A stretch of 51,782 nt of DNA, from positions 1 to 51,782 of the forward strand of contig CAMESG010000008.1 in assembly GCA_945936135.1 (NCBI GenBank), given 5' to 3'. Made by a program: the position numbers and the translations under genes. Source of the DNA: an uncultured Mollicutes bacterium (GTDB taxonomy: Bacteria; Bacillota_I; Bacilli_A; RFN20; CAG-826). This document shows positions 20,964 through 51,025 of this stretch, piece after piece; the first letter of the stretch is position 1; the number at the start of each line of letters is the position of its first letter. The notes below the pieces were generated by a model. It searched no databases and was not told the DNA's origin. It saw only the letters and a program-made list of their open reading frames with translations.

Positions 20964-21052
20964 TGGTGCCGGCTGCCGGACTCGAACCGGCATGAAGTTT
21001 GACCTTCGAGGGATTTTAAGTCCCTTGCGTCTACCATTTCGCCAAGCCGGCA
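20964..21052 (-). tRNA. tRNA-Leu (anticodon TAA)
   Basis: Class II tRNA on the minus strand, with encoded CCA. The acceptor starts TGCCGGC and pairs with GCCGGCA. The anticodon arm is GGGA-CTTAAAA-TCCC with anticodon TAA. A long variable arm and the T-loop GGTTCGAGTCC are present. Confidence 0.95.
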
Positions 21053-21131
21053 GGCCTGGAAGAAAGAAACCCGAAGCTCGTGCTTCGGGCGATTGGATTC
21101 CCTTTGCGCGAGGGAGAGAGTTCTAGGGGTT

Positions 21132-21207
21132 TGGTCCCCCGCGTGAGGCTCGAACTCACGACCCCTTGATTAAAAGTCAAGTGCTCTACCACTGAGCTAG
21201 CGGAGGA
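21132..21207 (-). tRNA. tRNA-Lys (anticodon TTT)
   Basis: Minus-strand cloverleaf starting TCCTCCGCTAGCTCAG with anticodon arm TTGA-CTTTTAA-TCAA (anticodon TTT), T-loop GTTCGAGCC and encoded CCA. Confidence 0.95.
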
Positions 21208-21282
21208 TGGCTGGGGTGGCTGGGATCGGACCAGCGCATGCGAGAGTCAAAGTCTCGTGCCTTACCGCTTGGCTACACCCCA
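21208..21282 (-). tRNA. tRNA-Gln (anticodon TTG)
   Basis: Minus-strand cloverleaf starting TGGGGTGTAGCCAAGCGG. The anticodon loop CTTTGAC gives TTG. The 3-prime end is CACCCCAGCCA. It abuts tRNA-Lys directly. Confidence 0.95.
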
Positions 21283-21289
21283 AGAAGAG

Positions 21290-21375
21290 TGGTGGGCGAA
21301 GATGGATTTGAACCACCGAACCCGAAGGAACTGATTTACAGTCAGCCGCGTTTGGCCACTTCGCTATTCGCCCAC
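21290..21375 (-). tRNA. tRNA-Tyr (anticodon GTA)
   Basis: Class II tRNA on the minus strand starting GTGGGCGAATAGCGAAG, with anticodon loop CTGTAAA (GTA), a long variable arm, T-loop GTTCAAATCC and encoded CCA. Confidence 0.95.
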
Positions 21376-21405
21376 GTTGTCTTTGCGCTTTGCCGAAGCA
21401 AGGTT

Positions 21406-21480
21406 TGGTGGATGCTGTAGGTTTCGAACCTACGACCCCCGCCTTGTAAGGGCGATGCTCTCCCGCTGAGCTAAGCATCC
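21406..21480 (-). tRNA. tRNA-Val (anticodon TAC)
   Basis: Minus-strand cloverleaf starting GGATGCTTAGCTCAGCGG, with anticodon loop CTTACAA (TAC), T-loop GTTCGAAACC and encoded CCA. First gene of the five-tRNA cluster. Confidence 0.95.
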
Positions 21481-36149: not shown

Positions 36150-36840
36150 GAATAACTATCCGCCGGACAATCCGGTGGTTTTTCATTTTCGGGCACTTAA
36201 GCCCTCTGCCGCCAGCTGCCACTCAAGGTGGCCGCGGAAGGGGCCGACGCCCGCATCTATTGCTGGCCACCCTTTGAAAGGGTCCCCGTCGAAGTCGATC
36301 GAAAGCTGCACTGCAGCCTGATCTTCCTTGAGCTGATTTCGGATGCGTTCCTCTGTCTTCTTCGCGTTTTTCCCAACCGTGTCGACGTAGTACCCCCGGC
36401 ACCAGAATTCCCGGTTCCGGCACTTGAGTTTCGCGTTCCCCCCACTTCTGGTAGATCATCAGGGACGATTTGCCCTTGAGGTATCCCATTATCCCGGAAA
36501 CCGAGAATTTGGGCGGGATCGAAATCAGCATGTGCACGTGGTCGGGGCAGACCTCGGCCTCGTGTATCGTGATTCCCTTCCATTCGCAGAGCTTCCGAAG
36601 GATCTGTCCGATCTCCAGCCGCTTCAGGCCGTAGAACTCCTTCCTCCGGTACTTCGGCGCGAAAACCACGTGGTACTTACAGTTCCAGCTGGCGTTCGCT
36701 AAACTTAGGTTGTCGGTATTCGACATTTGGCTCCTTTCAATGCTTGCGTTGGTCCGCAAGGCTATTGTAAGGAGCCCTTTTCGTCTGCGCAAAGCTATAA
36801 GCTCCACCGAACTCCCCGACTATCGGGGAGTTTTCACTCG
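36150..36840 (-). mobile_element. IS200/IS605-type element
   Basis: A frameshifted tnpA flanked by two subterminal hairpins: CCGCCGGA-caa-TCCGGTGG at 36160-36178 beyond the gene 3-prime end, and CTCCCCGA-cta-TCGGGGAG at 36812-36830 beyond its 5-prime end. Such hairpins are the TnpA recognition structures of IS200/IS605 elements. No tnpB is present, so it is the IS200 type. Exact tips are not determined. Confidence 0.8.
36183..36726 (-). pseudogene. tnpA: IS200/IS605 transposase TnpA, one frameshift
   Basis: HUH/Y1 transposase. The start MSNTDNLSLANASWNC at 36726 fits better than the longer frame. It has YHVVFAPKYRRKEFYG, the HUH motif CPDHVHMLISIPPKFSVSGI and, in another frame, FWCRGYYVDTVGKNAKKTEE with the catalytic Tyr. 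The frame changes at a G6 run at about 36437; five Gs would keep it open (KWGNAKLKCRNREF). A C-terminal extension of about 40 residues follows to the stop at 36183. Inactive unless the run length is an assembly error. Confidence 0.85.
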
Positions 36841-36892
36841 CTCGACGTTGCGCGTCGGCTCAAACAACAAAAGCGAAATAAATTTCGCATGA

Positions 36893-36920
36893 AACTCGGA
36901 ATTGCAATCCGAGTTTTTTA
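36893..36920 (+). terminator. Terminator-like hairpin before the IS91 transposase
   Basis: Stem ACTCGGA / TCCGAGT followed by TTTTTTATAAT, 11 bp before the transposase ATG at 36931. It may block read-through transcription into the element or form part of its end. Confidence 0.6.
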
Positions 36921-36930
36921 TAATATCGCC

Positions 36931-38281
36931 ATGTACTACAGAAACTCCGACCTGAGCATCAACCGGTACTTCACGAAGTTCAAGGACGACATCAACGAAG
37001 CCAAGAAGCACGGCAAGGAAGTTTTTTATAATGAAGTAAGAAAGAAGAACAACTGCTACCATGCGAGGAAACTTCAAGGCGATGTCTACATAAAGGACAT
37101 CTTTATAAAATATTGGCCTGAATTTAAGGAAAAGTATGCGGACAGACTGCAAAGACCTGGTTTGATTGAATCGATAGACAAGTTCGTAGGATGTCATAAC
37201 TTTGAAAATGGATACTTGTATTTCGAATGTCCGAACTGCAACGAATTCTACATGATTGGATTCTCCTGCGCCATTCCAGGATGTGCGCTTCATGCGGGAA
37301 GAAATACAAAGACCAAAGGACAATCAAGGTAAGCGAGAAGTGCTTACAGGTCCCCCACAGACAATTCGTCTTCACCGTCCCGTTCCAGCTGAGGGATTAT
37401 TTCCGCCTGTATCGGAAGCCTTTGCTGAACGCCTGTTCAAATCGGTGGACGATGCTTTTAACCTGCTCTTAAAGAACCATGCTCCAATTGCATACAAAAA
37501 GGAAAAAAGAAGACTTGGGCACATCGACTTCCTGCACACATTCGGGAGGGACATGAAATGGCATCCGCACATTCATGTGCTGATCGCAGAGAGGTATCTC
37601 AACAACAGGAGCGAGCTCAAGAAGCACGACTATTTTCATTTCGATTTCCTCAGGATCGCCTTCAGGAATTCGCTCTTCAGCAACATTTACGCCTATTTCA
37701 AAGCCCACCGCCCGGCCAAGGAACAGCGCGAGATGTATCAGCTTCTCAAAAAACTCAGAAATAAATACGAACTTGGCTACTATGTCTACGGAAGAAAGCT
37801 TTCCGAAAATAAATCCACCACTAAGGATATAACCGATTTGGTGAACTACATTGCTAGGTATGCCTCCCACCCACCAATATCCGAAAGAAGAATCACAAAG
37901 TGCAACATAGAAAACCTCACCATCACCTGGTTCTTCGACCCTCATGAGGACGACGACATCGAAGACGAGAAAATGAAACAGGGAAGGCAATACATCACCG
38001 AGGACGTATTCAAATTCATGTCGAGATTGGTCATGCACGTGGCCGACAAAGGCTTCCAACAGATAAGATATTATGGATTCTACTCAAATAAATTTAAGGA
38101 GAAGGTAACGAATGGATTGCTCTTTAGCGACAAAGAGCTAAAAAGGATGGCAGATGATACAATATGGGTCAACGGACTGAGGAAATCCTTCGGCTATGAC
38201 CCGCTTCCATGCAAATGCGGCAGCTATATGTTCCTCAACCCAAAACTATCATGCTATGGCAAGAGGCAGGATTTTGGCTAA
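36931..38281 (+). pseudogene. IS91-family transposase, two frameshifts
   Basis: Y2-type HUH transposase. The N-terminal zinc finger runs FECPNCNEFYMIGFSC then, in a second frame, RMCASCGKKY. The catalytic domain has FVFTVPFQLRDYF, WHPHIHVLIAERY (HUH) and VNYIARYASHPPISERRI with the paired tyrosines. It ends CKCGSYMFLNPKL. Shifts lie at about 37270 (one C missing) and about 37425 (C3 read as C2); repair gives about 450 aa. The stop TAA overlaps the ATG of the next small gene (TAATG). Confidence 0.85.
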
Positions 38282-41524: not shown

Positions 41525-41553
41525 AAAAGAAAAAGCGGGACGAAGCCCGCTTT
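41525..41553 (-). terminator. Terminator of the 797-aa repeat protein gene
   Basis: Minus-strand stem AAAGCGGGC-ttcgt-CCCGCTTT followed by TTCTTTTGC, 17 bp after the stop. Confidence 0.85.
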
Positions 41554-41569: not shown

Positions 41570-43963
41570 TCAAGGAATCATCTCGACGAGGTTGAGAATC
41601 TCCTGGATGGAATAGGACTTGACGGTATCGCTGTAGCCTTGGTCGGTCAAAAGGCCCGAGGCGATCAATTGGTAGACGGTCGCGTTCTGCAAGGACTCGC
41701 CGGCGGCGTTGCCTTCGAGTTCCGCGAAGGTCGTCTCGTTGACTTCGTAGGTCTTGCCACGCCCATTGGTCGCGTCTTTGTCGGTGACGTCGAAGCAGAG
41801 CAGGGACCAAATGCTCGCATCGGCTCTAAGATAATAGGCTTCTTCATTGGCAAGCGTCGGGTCGTAAACGTAAGAGGTTTTGCCCGCTTCGTTGACCTCC
41901 ATGCGATATTTATCGCCCGTGTACGAAACAACCGAGCGTTGAACGAAGCAATCCTTGCCGTAGACATCATAAAGCGTGATTCCGTCCACGACGGCTCCAA
42001 GATTCCCCAAAGTCGCGTTTTTGTCGATCAAGGATTGGATGATGGGGTTTTCGCTCTCGGTCATGACCGTTCCAAGATGGACGTTGTTAAGGTCGAATCC
42101 CCCGTTGAGGGCGCCGATGGTAATTTCGTCGTTTGAACTGATTCCCGGCAACGATTCGCGCAAACAATCGTAGAGTTTTTCATTCCCTTCCACGGGGATG
42201 AAGGCGGTCAACTTGACATTGTCTGTTGCCAAGGTTCCGTTTTCAAGCATGGCGAGGGTGATGTTTTCCCAAGACTCGTTGGTGGCCTGTTCCAAGAAGT
42301 CTTTCATCTTGGCATCGGGGTTGGTGATGACTTTTGCTAGATGCAATTCATCGAGCTGCATGTGCTTGAGATCGTCGATGATGAGATCCGCGTAACTCGT
42401 TTTATGCGAAAGATCGAGAAGGACCTTCGAAATGTCGCCCATGGTACCTTCGTCAATCAAACTCGCGAGATGGATGTTGTAGATGTTGAAGCCATCGCCT
42501 TTGAGGTCGCCGACGACGATGTCGTTGTAGTCTTTGTTCGTCGCGTCGACGAGAACTTTCACAAGGACATCATTATCCGCGGAGGTGATGAAGTGGTGGA
42601 AGGGGATCTTGTCGATCTTGAAGTGCTGGATATCGCCGATTTTGATGTTGTCGTCGGTGAGTTCGGTGCGGTCATCGCCTTCCTTGATTTCAACTGCGGC
42701 GATCAAAAGATCGTAGATGTCTCTGCTTTCGGCGGGATCTAGGACTGTTTTCAAAAGGATGTTATCGATCTCGATGCCCGAGATGTCTTGCAAGGTGACT
42801 TTTTCAAGTTCTTCATCACTCATGGCGTTCGTCGCACCACGGATGAGATCGTAGAAATCGGTGTTGATGTAGTTGCCGCCTTCATCTTTATATGGGACGA
42901 CGGTGACGATGCGGATGTTGTCCATGTTGATGTGACGAAGATCGCCGATTATGAGGTTTTCTTTTGTCGCCCCTTCGCGATCGACGGCGTCCAAAAGGAT
43001 GTCGAAGAGATCGGTGGCTTCGTCATCGCCTAAAACCGATTGGATACGGATTTTATCAAGATCGAGATTGCCGTTAATATCGAAGAGGGTGATGTCTTCT
43101 CTGTCGCCTTTATAGCTCAAGGCATCGACGATGACGTCGTAGAAGATTTCATTGTCTTTGACCGGCATGAAGTAATCGAGCTTCAATTCTTTGGAAATCT
43201 GGTCGGGGGTAAGAGTGCCCATTTCATTGACGGCATAGTCCTGGAGGATGACGTCAACAAGGCTTCCTTCCTCGACTTCACCCGCCAAAGCGAAGATGTT
43301 GCGGGCCTTTTCTTGACCGAGACGATCGGGAAGAACCTTGAAGAGATCGAGGATGTTGACGTTCTTCAAGGCGGGATAGTAATAGTCTTTGCCTTCGGCC
43401 TCGGGAACTTTGACTCCGTCGCGGCCATAAACGCGGGCATAGGTCGGGGTGTCGCTTGTTTTGTAGTAGTAGAGCTCGGGGATGAAGTCGTTGCTCGTTT
43501 CATCGATCGCATCGAGGGCCTCTTGGCTTAATTGATCGAAGTTGTTGAAAACGGGGAGGGTCGCAAGTTCGCCAAACTGCGGGGCGAGGTCGAGACTATC
43601 GATGGTCGCGGTGACCTCGATCGCCTTTTCGAGGGCTTCTCCGGCGTTGGTTAGATCCTTGAAGGCGAGCTGATCGAACTCGTCCCAATGGACGATCGCG
43701 TATTTGTCGAGCTCGTTTTGATCCCAAAAATCCTGAAGCGCTTTTTTGATGAAGGGCAATTGCTCGACGCGGACATCGCCGAATTGAGCGATGAGCGTGT
43801 AGAGGTTCAACTGCTGAAGCTCTTGGGCGATCAATTCGTCGTTGTTTTGGAAATAGGTGCCGACGGGAACGGCAAAAATCGCGATAGCAGCGGCCCCTGC
43901 AACCAAAACGACAGAAGAAAGAAAGCCACAAAGCCACCAATAGAATTTATGCAAAGCTCTCAT
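41570..43963 (-). CDS. Large membrane-anchored repeat protein, unknown family
   Basis: Protein of 797 aa. Residues 11-35 form one hydrophobic anchor (LCGFLSSVVLVAGAAAIAIF) with positive residues before it, so the rest is probably extracytoplasmic. Residues about 290-665 contain at least eight units of about 45 residues, each opening with a pattern (I/L)xx(G/Q)D(I/L)xxxx(I/L)DxIxLxTV and later a helix with (L/I)xDxLxxA. Examples are residues 291-310, 338-356, 389-407, 440-459, 482-503, 527-546, 568-590 and 614-633. The remaining C-terminus has IWSLLCFDVTDKDATNGRGK. It is intact, unlike accessory genes, so it is probably a maintained surface or envelope protein. No family recognised. Confidence 0.7.
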   Translation of the reverse strand: MRALHKFYWWLCGFLSSVVLVAGAAAIAIFAVPVGTYFQNNDELIAQELQQLNLYTLIAQFGDVRVEQLPFIKKALQDFWDQNELDKYAIVHWDEFDQLAFKDLTNAGEALEKAIEVTATIDSLDLAPQFGELATLPVFNNFDQLSQEALDAIDETSNDFIPELYYYKTSDTPTYARVYGRDGVKVPEAEGKDYYYPALKNVNILDLFKVLPDRLGQEKARNIFALAGEVEEGSLVDVILQDYAVNEMGTLTPDQISKELKLDYFMPVKDNEIFYDVIVDALSYKGDREDITLFDINGNLDLDKIRIQSVLGDDEATDLFDILLDAVDREGATKENLIIGDLRHINMDNIRIVTVVPYKDEGGNYINTDFYDLIRGATNAMSDEELEKVTLQDISGIEIDNILLKTVLDPAESRDIYDLLIAAVEIKEGDDRTELTDDNIKIGDIQHFKIDKIPFHHFITSADNDVLVKVLVDATNKDYNDIVVGDLKGDGFNIYNIHLASLIDEGTMGDISKVLLDLSHKTSYADLIIDDLKHMQLDELHLAKVITNPDAKMKDFLEQATNESWENITLAMLENGTLATDNVKLTAFIPVEGNEKLYDCLRESLPGISSNDEITIGALNGGFDLNNVHLGTVMTESENPIIQSLIDKNATLGNLGAVVDGITLYDVYGKDCFVQRSVVSYTGDKYRMEVNEAGKTSYVYDPTLANEEAYYLRADASIWSLLCFDVTDKDATNGRGKTYEVNETTFAELEGNAAGESLQNATVYQLIASGLLTDQGYSDTVKSYSIQEILNLVEMIP

Positions 43964-44043: not shown

Positions 44044-44072
44044 TTGAACCGGGTGCCCCTTTGGCCTAGACT
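44044..44072 (+). promoter_or_regulatory. Promoter of the metK leader
   Basis: TTGAAC (44044-44049), 17-bp spacer, TAGACT (44067-44072). It predicts a leader of about 185 nt ahead of metK. Confidence 0.65.
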
Positions 44073-44089
44073 ATCCGCACCGACGAAAG

Positions 44090-44245
44090 AAGGGACATCA
44101 AGAAGCGCCTCTGCAACGTAACCACGGCGCTAGCAACTCCTGGGAATACCCTCGTAAGTGCTCGTTGAAGCTTCTCCCCACAAGAAGAACGATGTCACCT
44201 TGGATGGCGCAAGAATTGCCTTCCCCAATGTGGGAAGGCTTTTTG
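44090..44245 (+). promoter_or_regulatory. SAM-I-like (S-box clan) riboswitch with terminator, metK leader
   Basis: An outer stem GACATC (44094-44099) / GATGTC (44191-44196) encloses a three-way arrangement. AAGA follows P1 as in S-boxes, an inner arm pairs AGCGCC with GGCGCT, GCAAC occurs at 44133-44137, and AAGTGCTCGTTGAAGC resembles the S-box AAGGTGCxAAxTCCxGC segment. A separate arm pairs AGCTTCT with AGAAG near 44180. It ends in a strong terminator GCCTTCCC / GGGAAGGC plus T5 (44218-44244) just before the metK ribosome binding site. Class assignment is by eye; the P2 kink-turn is not canonical. Confidence 0.6.
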
Positions 44246-44263: not shown

Positions 44264-45436
44264 ATGAACGAAAAAATTTTATTCACCAGCGAGTCCGTGT
44301 CCGAGGGCCATCCCGACAAAGTTTGTGACCAAATCGCCGACGCGATCCTTGACGAATGCCTCCGTTTGGACCCGAATTCTCATGTTGCCTGCGAAGTTTT
44401 TGCAACCACGGAATTCGTGTTGATCGGCGGGGAAATCACCTGCGCCGGTAAGCCGGATTACGAAGGCATCGCCCGCCGCGTCTTAAAAGAAATCGGCTAC
44501 ACGTCGAAGGAAATTGGCATTGGCTGCGATAGCTGTGAGATCAAGGTCCTGGTCAAAGAACAAAGCCCGGATATCGCCCGCGGGGTCAATCGCGGTGACA
44601 TCTTGGATCAAGGCGCAGGCGACCAAGGTATTATGTTCGGTTACGCGACGAACGAAAGCGAAGGCTATATGCCCTTGCCGATCTCGATTGCCCATAAGCT
44701 TGTTCGCGTCGCGACTTCGATGCGCAAAGAAGGCAAGTTCCCTGGTGCCCGTCCAGATATGAAAAGCCAGGTCACGATCGACTATACCGAACCCGGGAAA
44801 CCCCGCATCCAAACGATCCTCATGTCGGTTCAACACGATCCGGAAGTCAATTTGGAATCCTTCCGCGACTTCATCCGCGACGAGATCATGATCCCGGTCG
44901 CAAGATCCTTCCACATGAACGAAGACTTTGAGGTCTTGGTCAACCCGACCGGCCGTTTCGTGATTGGGGGACCTGATGGCGACACCGGTTTGACGGGCCG
45001 CAAATTGATCGTTGACACCTATGGCGGAAGTGCTCGTCATGGCGGCGGAGCCTTCTCGGGAAAAGACCCTTCGAAAGTCGACCGCAGCGCCTCCTACTAC
45101 GCGCGTTACATCGCCAAAAACTTGGTGGCCGCGGGAGCCGCGGATCGGTTGGAAGTTCAACTTTCCTACGCGATCGGCGTTGCCCGTCCCTTGTCGATCT
45201 CCGTCTCGACATTCGGAACCAGACATGTTCCCGACGAATGGATTCTTGAGGCGATCGATCGATATTTCGACGCTCGTCCAGGAGCGATTATCTCTTCGTT
45301 CCATATGACCAAACCAACTTGGAAATATTCCGATACCTCCAATTACGGGGTCTATGGACGCCCCGATATGGACGTCCCTTGGGAGAAACTCGACAAAGTT
45401 GAAGAAATTAAATCCTTCTTTGCTTCCAAGAAGTAA
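44264..45436 (+). CDS. metK: S-adenosylmethionine synthetase
   Basis: MetK of 390 aa, making SAM from methionine and ATP in the cytoplasm. The ATG at 44264 follows GAAGGAGAAA; an in-frame upstream extension lies inside the leader terminator and is not translated. Motifs are SEGHPDKVCDQIADAILDEC, the hexapeptide GAGDQGIMFGYA, and GGGAFSGKDPSKVDRSASYY. Downstream of a SAM-riboswitch-like leader, consistent with feedback control. Confidence 0.97.
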   Translation: MNEKILFTSESVSEGHPDKVCDQIADAILDECLRLDPNSHVACEVFATTEFVLIGGEITCAGKPDYEGIARRVLKEIGYTSKEIGIGCDSCEIKVLVKEQSPDIARGVNRGDILDQGAGDQGIMFGYATNESEGYMPLPISIAHKLVRVATSMRKEGKFPGARPDMKSQVTIDYTEPGKPRIQTILMSVQHDPEVNLESFRDFIRDEIMIPVARSFHMNEDFEVLVNPTGRFVIGGPDGDTGLTGRKLIVDTYGGSARHGGGAFSGKDPSKVDRSASYYARYIAKNLVAAGAADRLEVQLSYAIGVARPLSISVSTFGTRHVPDEWILEAIDRYFDARPGAIISSFHMTKPTWKYSDTSNYGVYGRPDMDVPWEKLDKVEEIKSFFASKK

Positions 45437-49522: not shown

Positions 49523-51025
49523 TTACTGGCGGAGCACTAGCTTCTCCGTACGAACACCATTGACTACGCCATCGATGCTTTCGATTTTGGCTTTTGTGGC
49601 GAAGACATCGACGTTTACGACTATCTTTCCGTCTTTGTAGGCAACAACCTTATCCACGAATGCTTCGAATAAGGCGCGCTTATGCATATCGTTTTCGGAT
49701 AAGTAATCTCCGAGGATTTCTAGGGAGGCAACGATCTCGGCTTTCGTGCATCGGCGGCTCGTGATTTGCTCACGCTGGATCCTTTTCTCCAAATCGGACT
49801 TCTCGCCCTCGAGCCTCAGCAATGCGCTTTTGGTCGTCTCGGTGATGATGCCCATGCCGATCGCCTTCTCGAAGTTCCCGATTTGGGTTTGGACGTTTGT
49901 GAGTTGGGCTTTTAATCTGCTCAGTTCCGTAGAATCCTGCCTTTGGGCGCGATAGATGCGGTCGGCGACTTCATTAATGACCTTCCTTTCCTTGAGGGAA
50001 TCCAAAATGAGCAAAGCGACTGTGTTCTCGACGTCTTCCTTCAAGAGCCTCCTGGTATCGCATTTATGGGCCCTTGCGCCTTTGCAGTGGTAATAGGAAT
50101 AGAGCCTCTTGCTCTTCGATGTGCCGGATTCCCCGATAAGCATCTCGCCGCATTCCCCGCAGAAAAGCCTGCCGGTCAAAGAGTATTCCACGTTGGCTTG
50201 GAACGCGCCTCCGCAATGCCTTTTTTGGGCTCTGCGCTCCTGGACTTTGTTAAAGGTCGCATCATCGATTAAGCGCGGAATGGCGTTGTCGTTTACGGCT
50301 CCATCGCATTTAAGCCTTCCGATATATCTTTCCGACGCCAGGGCCTTCTCCAAAGTATTTCTTCTTAGCGGAGTGCCATCGAACCTTGTGTAGCCTAAGA
50401 CTTGGAACTTCTCGGCTATCGCTTTGATGCTCATTCCCTCGTAGGCGTATAGCCTGAATAGCTCTTTGACTACCGGCCCCTCCGTTTCGTCGATGACGTA
50501 TCGGCCATCGATTATTCGGTATCCGAGTTGTCTAAATCCGCCGGTCGTCTTTCCTTTGAGGACGTTCTCGGTCATACCTCTTTTGACTTTTTGGGACAAG
50601 TCCGCCGAGTAATATTCGCTCATGCCGTCCAGCAGAGATTCCATGATGATGCCGTCGGGGCCGTCCATGATTCTCTCGGTGGCGGAGATTACCTTCACCC
50701 CGTTGCGCTTCAGAATGGCCTTGTATTCGAGAGAGTCGTATCTGCTTCTTGCGAACCTGTCGAATTTCCAAACCAAGACGATCCCGAAGGATCTCGATGC
50801 CGATTCCCTCATCATCCTTTGGAAATCGGGTCGGTTATCCGTGGTCGCGGACTTCGCCCTATCCACGTATTTGGCGATGACCTCTATGCCGTTCTTCTTG
50901 GCGTATTCAAGGCACTCCCTCCGCTGGCCTTCGATGGATTCCTCTCGCTGGTTCTCGCTGGAGAATCGGCAGTAGAGGACGGCTTTGTCGGCGTTCTCGC
51001 CATTGATGAACTTATCGCTGGTCAT
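49523..51025 (-). CDS. Large serine recombinase
   Basis: Site-specific recombinase of 500 aa. The resolvase domain carries the nucleophile Ser in AVLYCRFSSENQREESIEGQ and the active-site Arg residues in VWKFDRFARSRYDSL. The recombinase domain has FRQLGYRIIDGRYVIDE and LRRNTLEKALASERYIGRLK. A zinc-ribbon domain has LFCGECGEMLIG and YYHCKG...CDTR. A coiled-coil of the type that controls integration direction follows (STELSRLKAQLTNVQTQIGN). Such enzymes integrate phages or conjugative elements. Its start overlaps the 151-aa gene by 4 bp. Intact. Confidence 0.93.
   Translation of the reverse strand: MTSDKFINGENADKAVLYCRFSSENQREESIEGQRRECLEYAKKNGIEVIAKYVDRAKSATTDNRPDFQRMMRESASRSFGIVLVWKFDRFARSRYDSLEYKAILKRNGVKVISATERIMDGPDGIIMESLLDGMSEYYSADLSQKVKRGMTENVLKGKTTGGFRQLGYRIIDGRYVIDETEGPVVKELFRLYAYEGMSIKAIAEKFQVLGYTRFDGTPLRRNTLEKALASERYIGRLKCDGAVNDNAIPRLIDDATFNKVQERRAQKRHCGGAFQANVEYSLTGRLFCGECGEMLIGESGTSKSKRLYSYYHCKGARAHKCDTRRLLKEDVENTVALLILDSLKERKVINEVADRIYRAQRQDSTELSRLKAQLTNVQTQIGNFEKAIGMGIITETTKSALLRLEGEKSDLEKRIQREQITSRRCTKAEIVASLEILGDYLSENDMHKRALFEAFVDKVVAYKDGKIVVNVDVFATKAKIESIDGVVNGVRTEKLVLRQ

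Follow-up and report, generated by a model that had tools for sequence, protein, structure and literature searches.

The window, by which we mean the whole stretch of 51,782 nucleotides analysed here, encodes a 797-residue protein that consists, from its N-terminus, of a single membrane helix, an N-domain of about 220 residues, nine tandem repeats and a C-domain of about 150 residues. The repeat is real, and it is new relative to the libraries that we searched. We put the chances at about even that this protein is a bitopic, surface-exposed repeat stalk of a wall-less cell, with its conserved C-terminal domain presented as a head.

The open reading frame starts with ATG and runs without an internal stop. 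About 16 nt past its stop codon lies a hairpin with an 8-bp stem, followed by T-rich sequence. Since both adjoining genes, a small TSCPD-like ORF and metK, run on the opposite strand, the gene is monocistronic, and the earlier description of an intact, monocistronic gene with a terminator was therefore accurate. The host genome (1.23 Mb, rated 100% complete) holds this gene once. The features of the locus are as follows:

41570–43963, minus strand: open reading frame of the repeat protein, 797 residues plus stop, single copy in its own genome
43972–43977, minus strand: Shine-Dalgarno-like GAGGAA upstream of the ATG, read from the sequence
41532–41553, minus strand: intrinsic terminator (stem-loop and T-rich tail)
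43859–43963, minus strand: basic tail and membrane helix, residues 1–35, pI 9.3 against 4.2, aligned in the genus and in distant members
43190–43858, minus strand: conserved N-domain, residues 36–258, from the alignment, AF2 pLDDT mostly 70–90
43118–43189, minus strand: repeat 1 (partial), residues 259–282, from the repeat profile, as are repeats 2 to 9
42983–43093, minus strand: repeat 2, residues 291–327
42821–42949, minus strand: repeat 3, residues 339–381
42692–42799, minus strand: repeat 4, residues 389–424
42527–42646, minus strand: repeat 5, residues 440–479
42395–42520, minus strand: repeat 6, residues 482–523
42272–42379, minus strand: repeat 7, residues 529–564
42155–42262, minus strand: repeat 8, residues 568–603
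42029–42124, minus strand: repeat 9, residues 614–645
41573–42028, minus strand: conserved C-domain, mixed alpha/beta, residues 646–797, from alignments, AF2 pLDDT >90 over most of its length

The sole hydrophobic stretch of the protein is N-terminal, with a short basic tail ahead of it (pI 9.3), while the remainder is acidic (pI 4.2); going by charge only, this difference implies an N-in, C-out topology. The repeat array is acidic and cysteine-poor. The N-domain contains an insertion (LYYYK...YARAF...YYPAL), and the C-domain carries degenerate repeat-like segments at either end. Because inspection of the sequence revealed neither an LPxTG motif nor a lipobox, the protein does not qualify as a sortase-anchored or lipoprotein adhesin. 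The earlier note had rightly recognized a single N-terminal anchor followed by a long repeat region, but it had not told the two non-repetitive, conserved end domains apart from the array.

An iterated repeat profile matched the window protein nine times, at domain E-values between 4e-6 and 7e-13. This profile was seeded from family members that include the window protein, so that these values are not independent; the stronger evidence for the repeat is its excess over shuffled sequences and its recurrence in 13 homologues. Only three of 200 shuffled window proteins gave a match, a single weak one at most, and the rest were empty. These results uphold the claim of eight or more regular repeats. 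The proposed period of 45 residues was nearly right: 14 related proteins gave a median spacing of 44, with 43, 44 and 45 being the commonest values. The consensus of 109 units reads ITIGDLsgFdtdNIkLttVLpy..NEkLYdILxdATGk. Mean identity among the units inside the window protein is only about 28%, and the array is therefore old.

Searches of Pfam, NCBIfam, PHROGs and PDB sequences produced no convincing match for the repeat protein, which bears out the earlier statement that no known family corresponds to it, and a literature search returned nothing on this family. For 13 members analysed with hmmscan, no AsmA or TamB/DUF490 model matched at E ≤ 1. The Pfam scan gave no SLH or S-layer profile and no ARM/HEAT profile, and no known carbohydrate- or matrix-binding domain was found in the family. 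Pfam matches of distant members to POTRA (0.003) and PqqD (0.002) occurred in a single member each and were held to be chance.

Homologues with the same architecture are present in 16 of the 31 genomes of the genus, with one copy wherever they occur and no paralogues found within the genus. The search with the window protein gave homologues in 14 of the 31, the window's own genome counted, and a second, divergent form was found in two further genomes (G012 and G025). The full-length ORFs of 13 relatives encode 494–1147 residues, and all 14 genus members that define the repeat keep the order of membrane helix, N-domain, repeats and C-domain. The family as defined here combines these four elements, with 44-residue repeats, in this order; its alignment comprises the membrane helix with the N-domain, a variable middle and the C-domain. 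By the repeat profile, 10 of 13 near-complete genus genomes contain the protein, and three near-complete, wall-less members have no detectable copy. Profile searches uncovered distant relatives with the same architecture in seven or more further genera within the taxonomic family to which the genus belongs (g7, g26, g31, g40, g44, g46 and g53), and distant members from other genera retain the C-domain. A class-wide sample of 395 genomes gave no match outside that taxonomic family.

The contig collection gave no match when searched directly with the window protein. A pattern search was impractical with the alignment of the whole family, which varies too much, so three short members served as the query. 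This query reached three metagenome-assembled genomes (MAGs), all assigned to unclassified Bacilli and obtained from the stomachs of ruminants (goat rumen, roe deer rumen and water deer abomasum). Viral contigs gave no match to the genus-subset query, and an origin from phage or plasmid was rejected on the grounds that tblastn found no match in the phage or plasmid collection. Neighbouring genes are kept locally between the window and the related genome G007, and likewise inside other genera. Since the neighbours vary by species and no family-wide gene neighbourhood was found, we dropped operon-based inference of function.

The number of repeats ranges from 3 to 15 across family members by the repeat profile, in contrast to the conserved ends. 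The syntenic locus in G007 encodes 13 units compared to 9 in the window protein. The best-matching units of the two proteins are collinear, the G007 copy having two additional ones at each of two internal places, as read from a unit identity matrix rather than from a formal test. The two repeat proteins are 48% identical, compared to 80% for the flanking MgtE and 87% for MetK. This divergence is spread across all domains, and the membrane segment is best kept (60%). By analogy, divergence this fast relative to the flanks would be usual for an exposed protein.

Between the repeat-protein gene and metK (plus strand, ATG at 44264) lies a leader of roughly 150 nt (44072–44240, plus strand), nearly identical to its G007 counterpart (L031 12604–12779); the DNA ahead of it is only loosely alike. 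This leader has a long closing stem, internal hairpins and an intrinsic terminator at its end, and the two sequences differ by four paired changes. Its fold is no more stable than that of shuffled sequences (z −0.56), and an Rfam search of this strand gave no family match. An unrecognised SAM-responsive attenuator is one possible reading of these two sequences. Elsewhere in the window, judged from translation only, two putative transposase ORFs (IS200/IS605-like, minus strand, and IS91-like, plus strand) lie at 36223–38281, and the N-terminus of an ORF at 49523–51025 (minus strand) resembles a large serine recombinase, which suggests an integrated element at that contig end. Five tRNA genes are clustered at 20967–21480 (minus strand).

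Structure prediction of the full-length protein by AF2 (13-sequence alignment) resulted in a model with a pLDDT of 81.6 and a pTM of 0.34, and prediction of residues 440–797 (23 sequences with arrays in register) in one with a pLDDT of 91.0 and a pTM of 0.62. In both models each repeat contains two copies of a motif in which a short turn leads through a one-residue beta-bridge into a short helix, and ends with a helix of about 10 residues. The repeat is thus predicted to be mainly helical and linked by single-residue beta-bridges. Tandem repetition of homologous units makes an extended solenoid likely, though the low full-length pTM weakens the case for a straight stalk. The regular, repetitive array that the earlier note had described is upheld, and an elongated form outside the membrane is probable, but the models replace the proposed beta structure with helices.

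Foldseek searches of the PDB with either model gave best E-values of 0.6–0.7, VIA found no solved structure with a Z of 2 or more for either model, and the full-length model had no match in BFVD with E <1. The predicted fold is therefore one without a solved counterpart, its novelty being relative to the PDB and to viral models. ARM/HEAT alpha-solenoids share the period of about 44 residues and the three helical segments per unit, but two of the helices in the repeat described here are very short, and an isolated beta-bridge precedes each of them; the Foldseek matches all lie at E 0.6 or above. The paired I-x-L beta-bridge motif led us to consider EF-hand and dockerin pairs, which also contain two helix-bordered motifs with single-residue bridges. 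Here, by contrast, the bridge residue is variable and mostly polar, the DxDxDG loop is absent, and no Pfam profile matches.

The cell that carries this protein almost certainly has no wall, judging from its gene content: penicillin-binding transpeptidases (PF00905) and the SEDS proteins FtsW/RodA were found in none of the 31 genus genomes with searches whose controls worked. FtsZ is kept in 28 of the 31. We rejected MreB as a possible partner, since length and position suggest that the PF06723 matches of about 610 residues are DnaK and that the weak ones beside ftsZ are FtsA; MreB itself appears to be absent from the genus. Without PBP transpeptidase, FtsW/RodA and apparently MreB, and with FtsZ and an adjacent FtsA-like match retained, the genus reads as a wall-less lineage that still holds the core division filament. 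A published survey, to which the wall-less gut Bacilli are known through sequence only, predicts an absence of peptidoglycan for certain families of the uncultured order RFN20 (PMC10868615), and the window genome fits this prediction.

On such a cell, the N-in, C-out helix would anchor the protein, and the helical array would act as a spacer or stalk that keeps the C-domain off the membrane. Array length could be adjusted by gaining or losing 44-residue units, and the C-domain would be the part likeliest to bind a ligand or partner. This arrangement fits the fast divergence, the variable repeat number, the conserved ends and the lineage restriction. Membrane-anchored tandem-repeat surface proteins with stalk or spacer function share the single anchor, the array of variable copy number, the conserved terminal domain and the fast divergence, but the repeat sequence and predicted fold found here match no entry of Pfam, NCBIfam, PHROGs or the PDB. 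A single copy instead of a paralogue family, which is less typical for adhesins, the lack of a family-wide gene neighbourhood, the full-length pTM of 0.34 and a topology deduced from charge only all weaken the case for a stalk with a head.

The same divergence, repeat number, conserved ends and restriction do not discriminate between an adhesin, a coat and a household spacer. Slightly in favour of a general envelope function are the gene's single copy and its occurrence in most of the near-complete genomes of the genus. It is unlikely, though the most plausible of the alternatives, that the array or the C-domain attaches to plant fibre, to the mucus of the host or to other microbes, with repeat number setting the reach. 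Rapid change beside conserved neighbours, variable repeat number and the ruminant gut origin of members would suit such an adhesin. The solitary gene, the lack of a known binding domain and the retention of the C-domain in other genera, which would call for a shared and not a host-specific ligand, do not. Somewhat less probable is a structural coat or exoskeleton, in which many copies form a layer that stiffens or protects the membrane without peptidoglycan. PBP genes occur in 29 of 245 genomes of the order sample, and none of these 29 encodes the repeat protein, while 10 of the 13 near-complete genus genomes do carry it. However, the taxonomic family includes no more than five PBP-positive genomes, too few to separate their lack of the protein from phylogeny statistically; this overlap is a coincidence of distribution and no evidence of a causal link. 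The three near-complete, wall-less members in which no copy was detected and the missing SLH or S-layer match also speak against a coat. We are more doubtful still that arrays of a new solenoid fold form a protein outer layer that in part replaces the lost peptidoglycan in its mechanical or spacing role.

A role in division or envelope organisation, as an outside partner of the retained FtsZ/FtsA machinery, is improbable. Retention of FtsZ without SEDS or PBP, the conserved membrane helix and the single copy would be compatible with it, but the gene is not near ftsZ (on contig C8 and C1, respectively, in G000) and is not universal in the genus. The lipid-transfer bridge of the AsmA/TamB type and the beta-solenoid that the earlier note had proposed share with our protein a lone N-terminal anchor followed by a long, regular array. 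We consider them very improbable, because the models show mostly helices and one-residue bridges in place of a long beta groove or stacked beta coils, profiles for AsmA, TamB and beta-solenoids give no match, and a second, outer membrane is not expected in this lineage.

For the surface organisation of wall-less Bacilli in the gut, a single-copy, lineage-specific repeat protein whose fold is confidently predicted provides a concrete handle. Its repeat merits structure determination and would, on confirmation, constitute a new Pfam repeat family.
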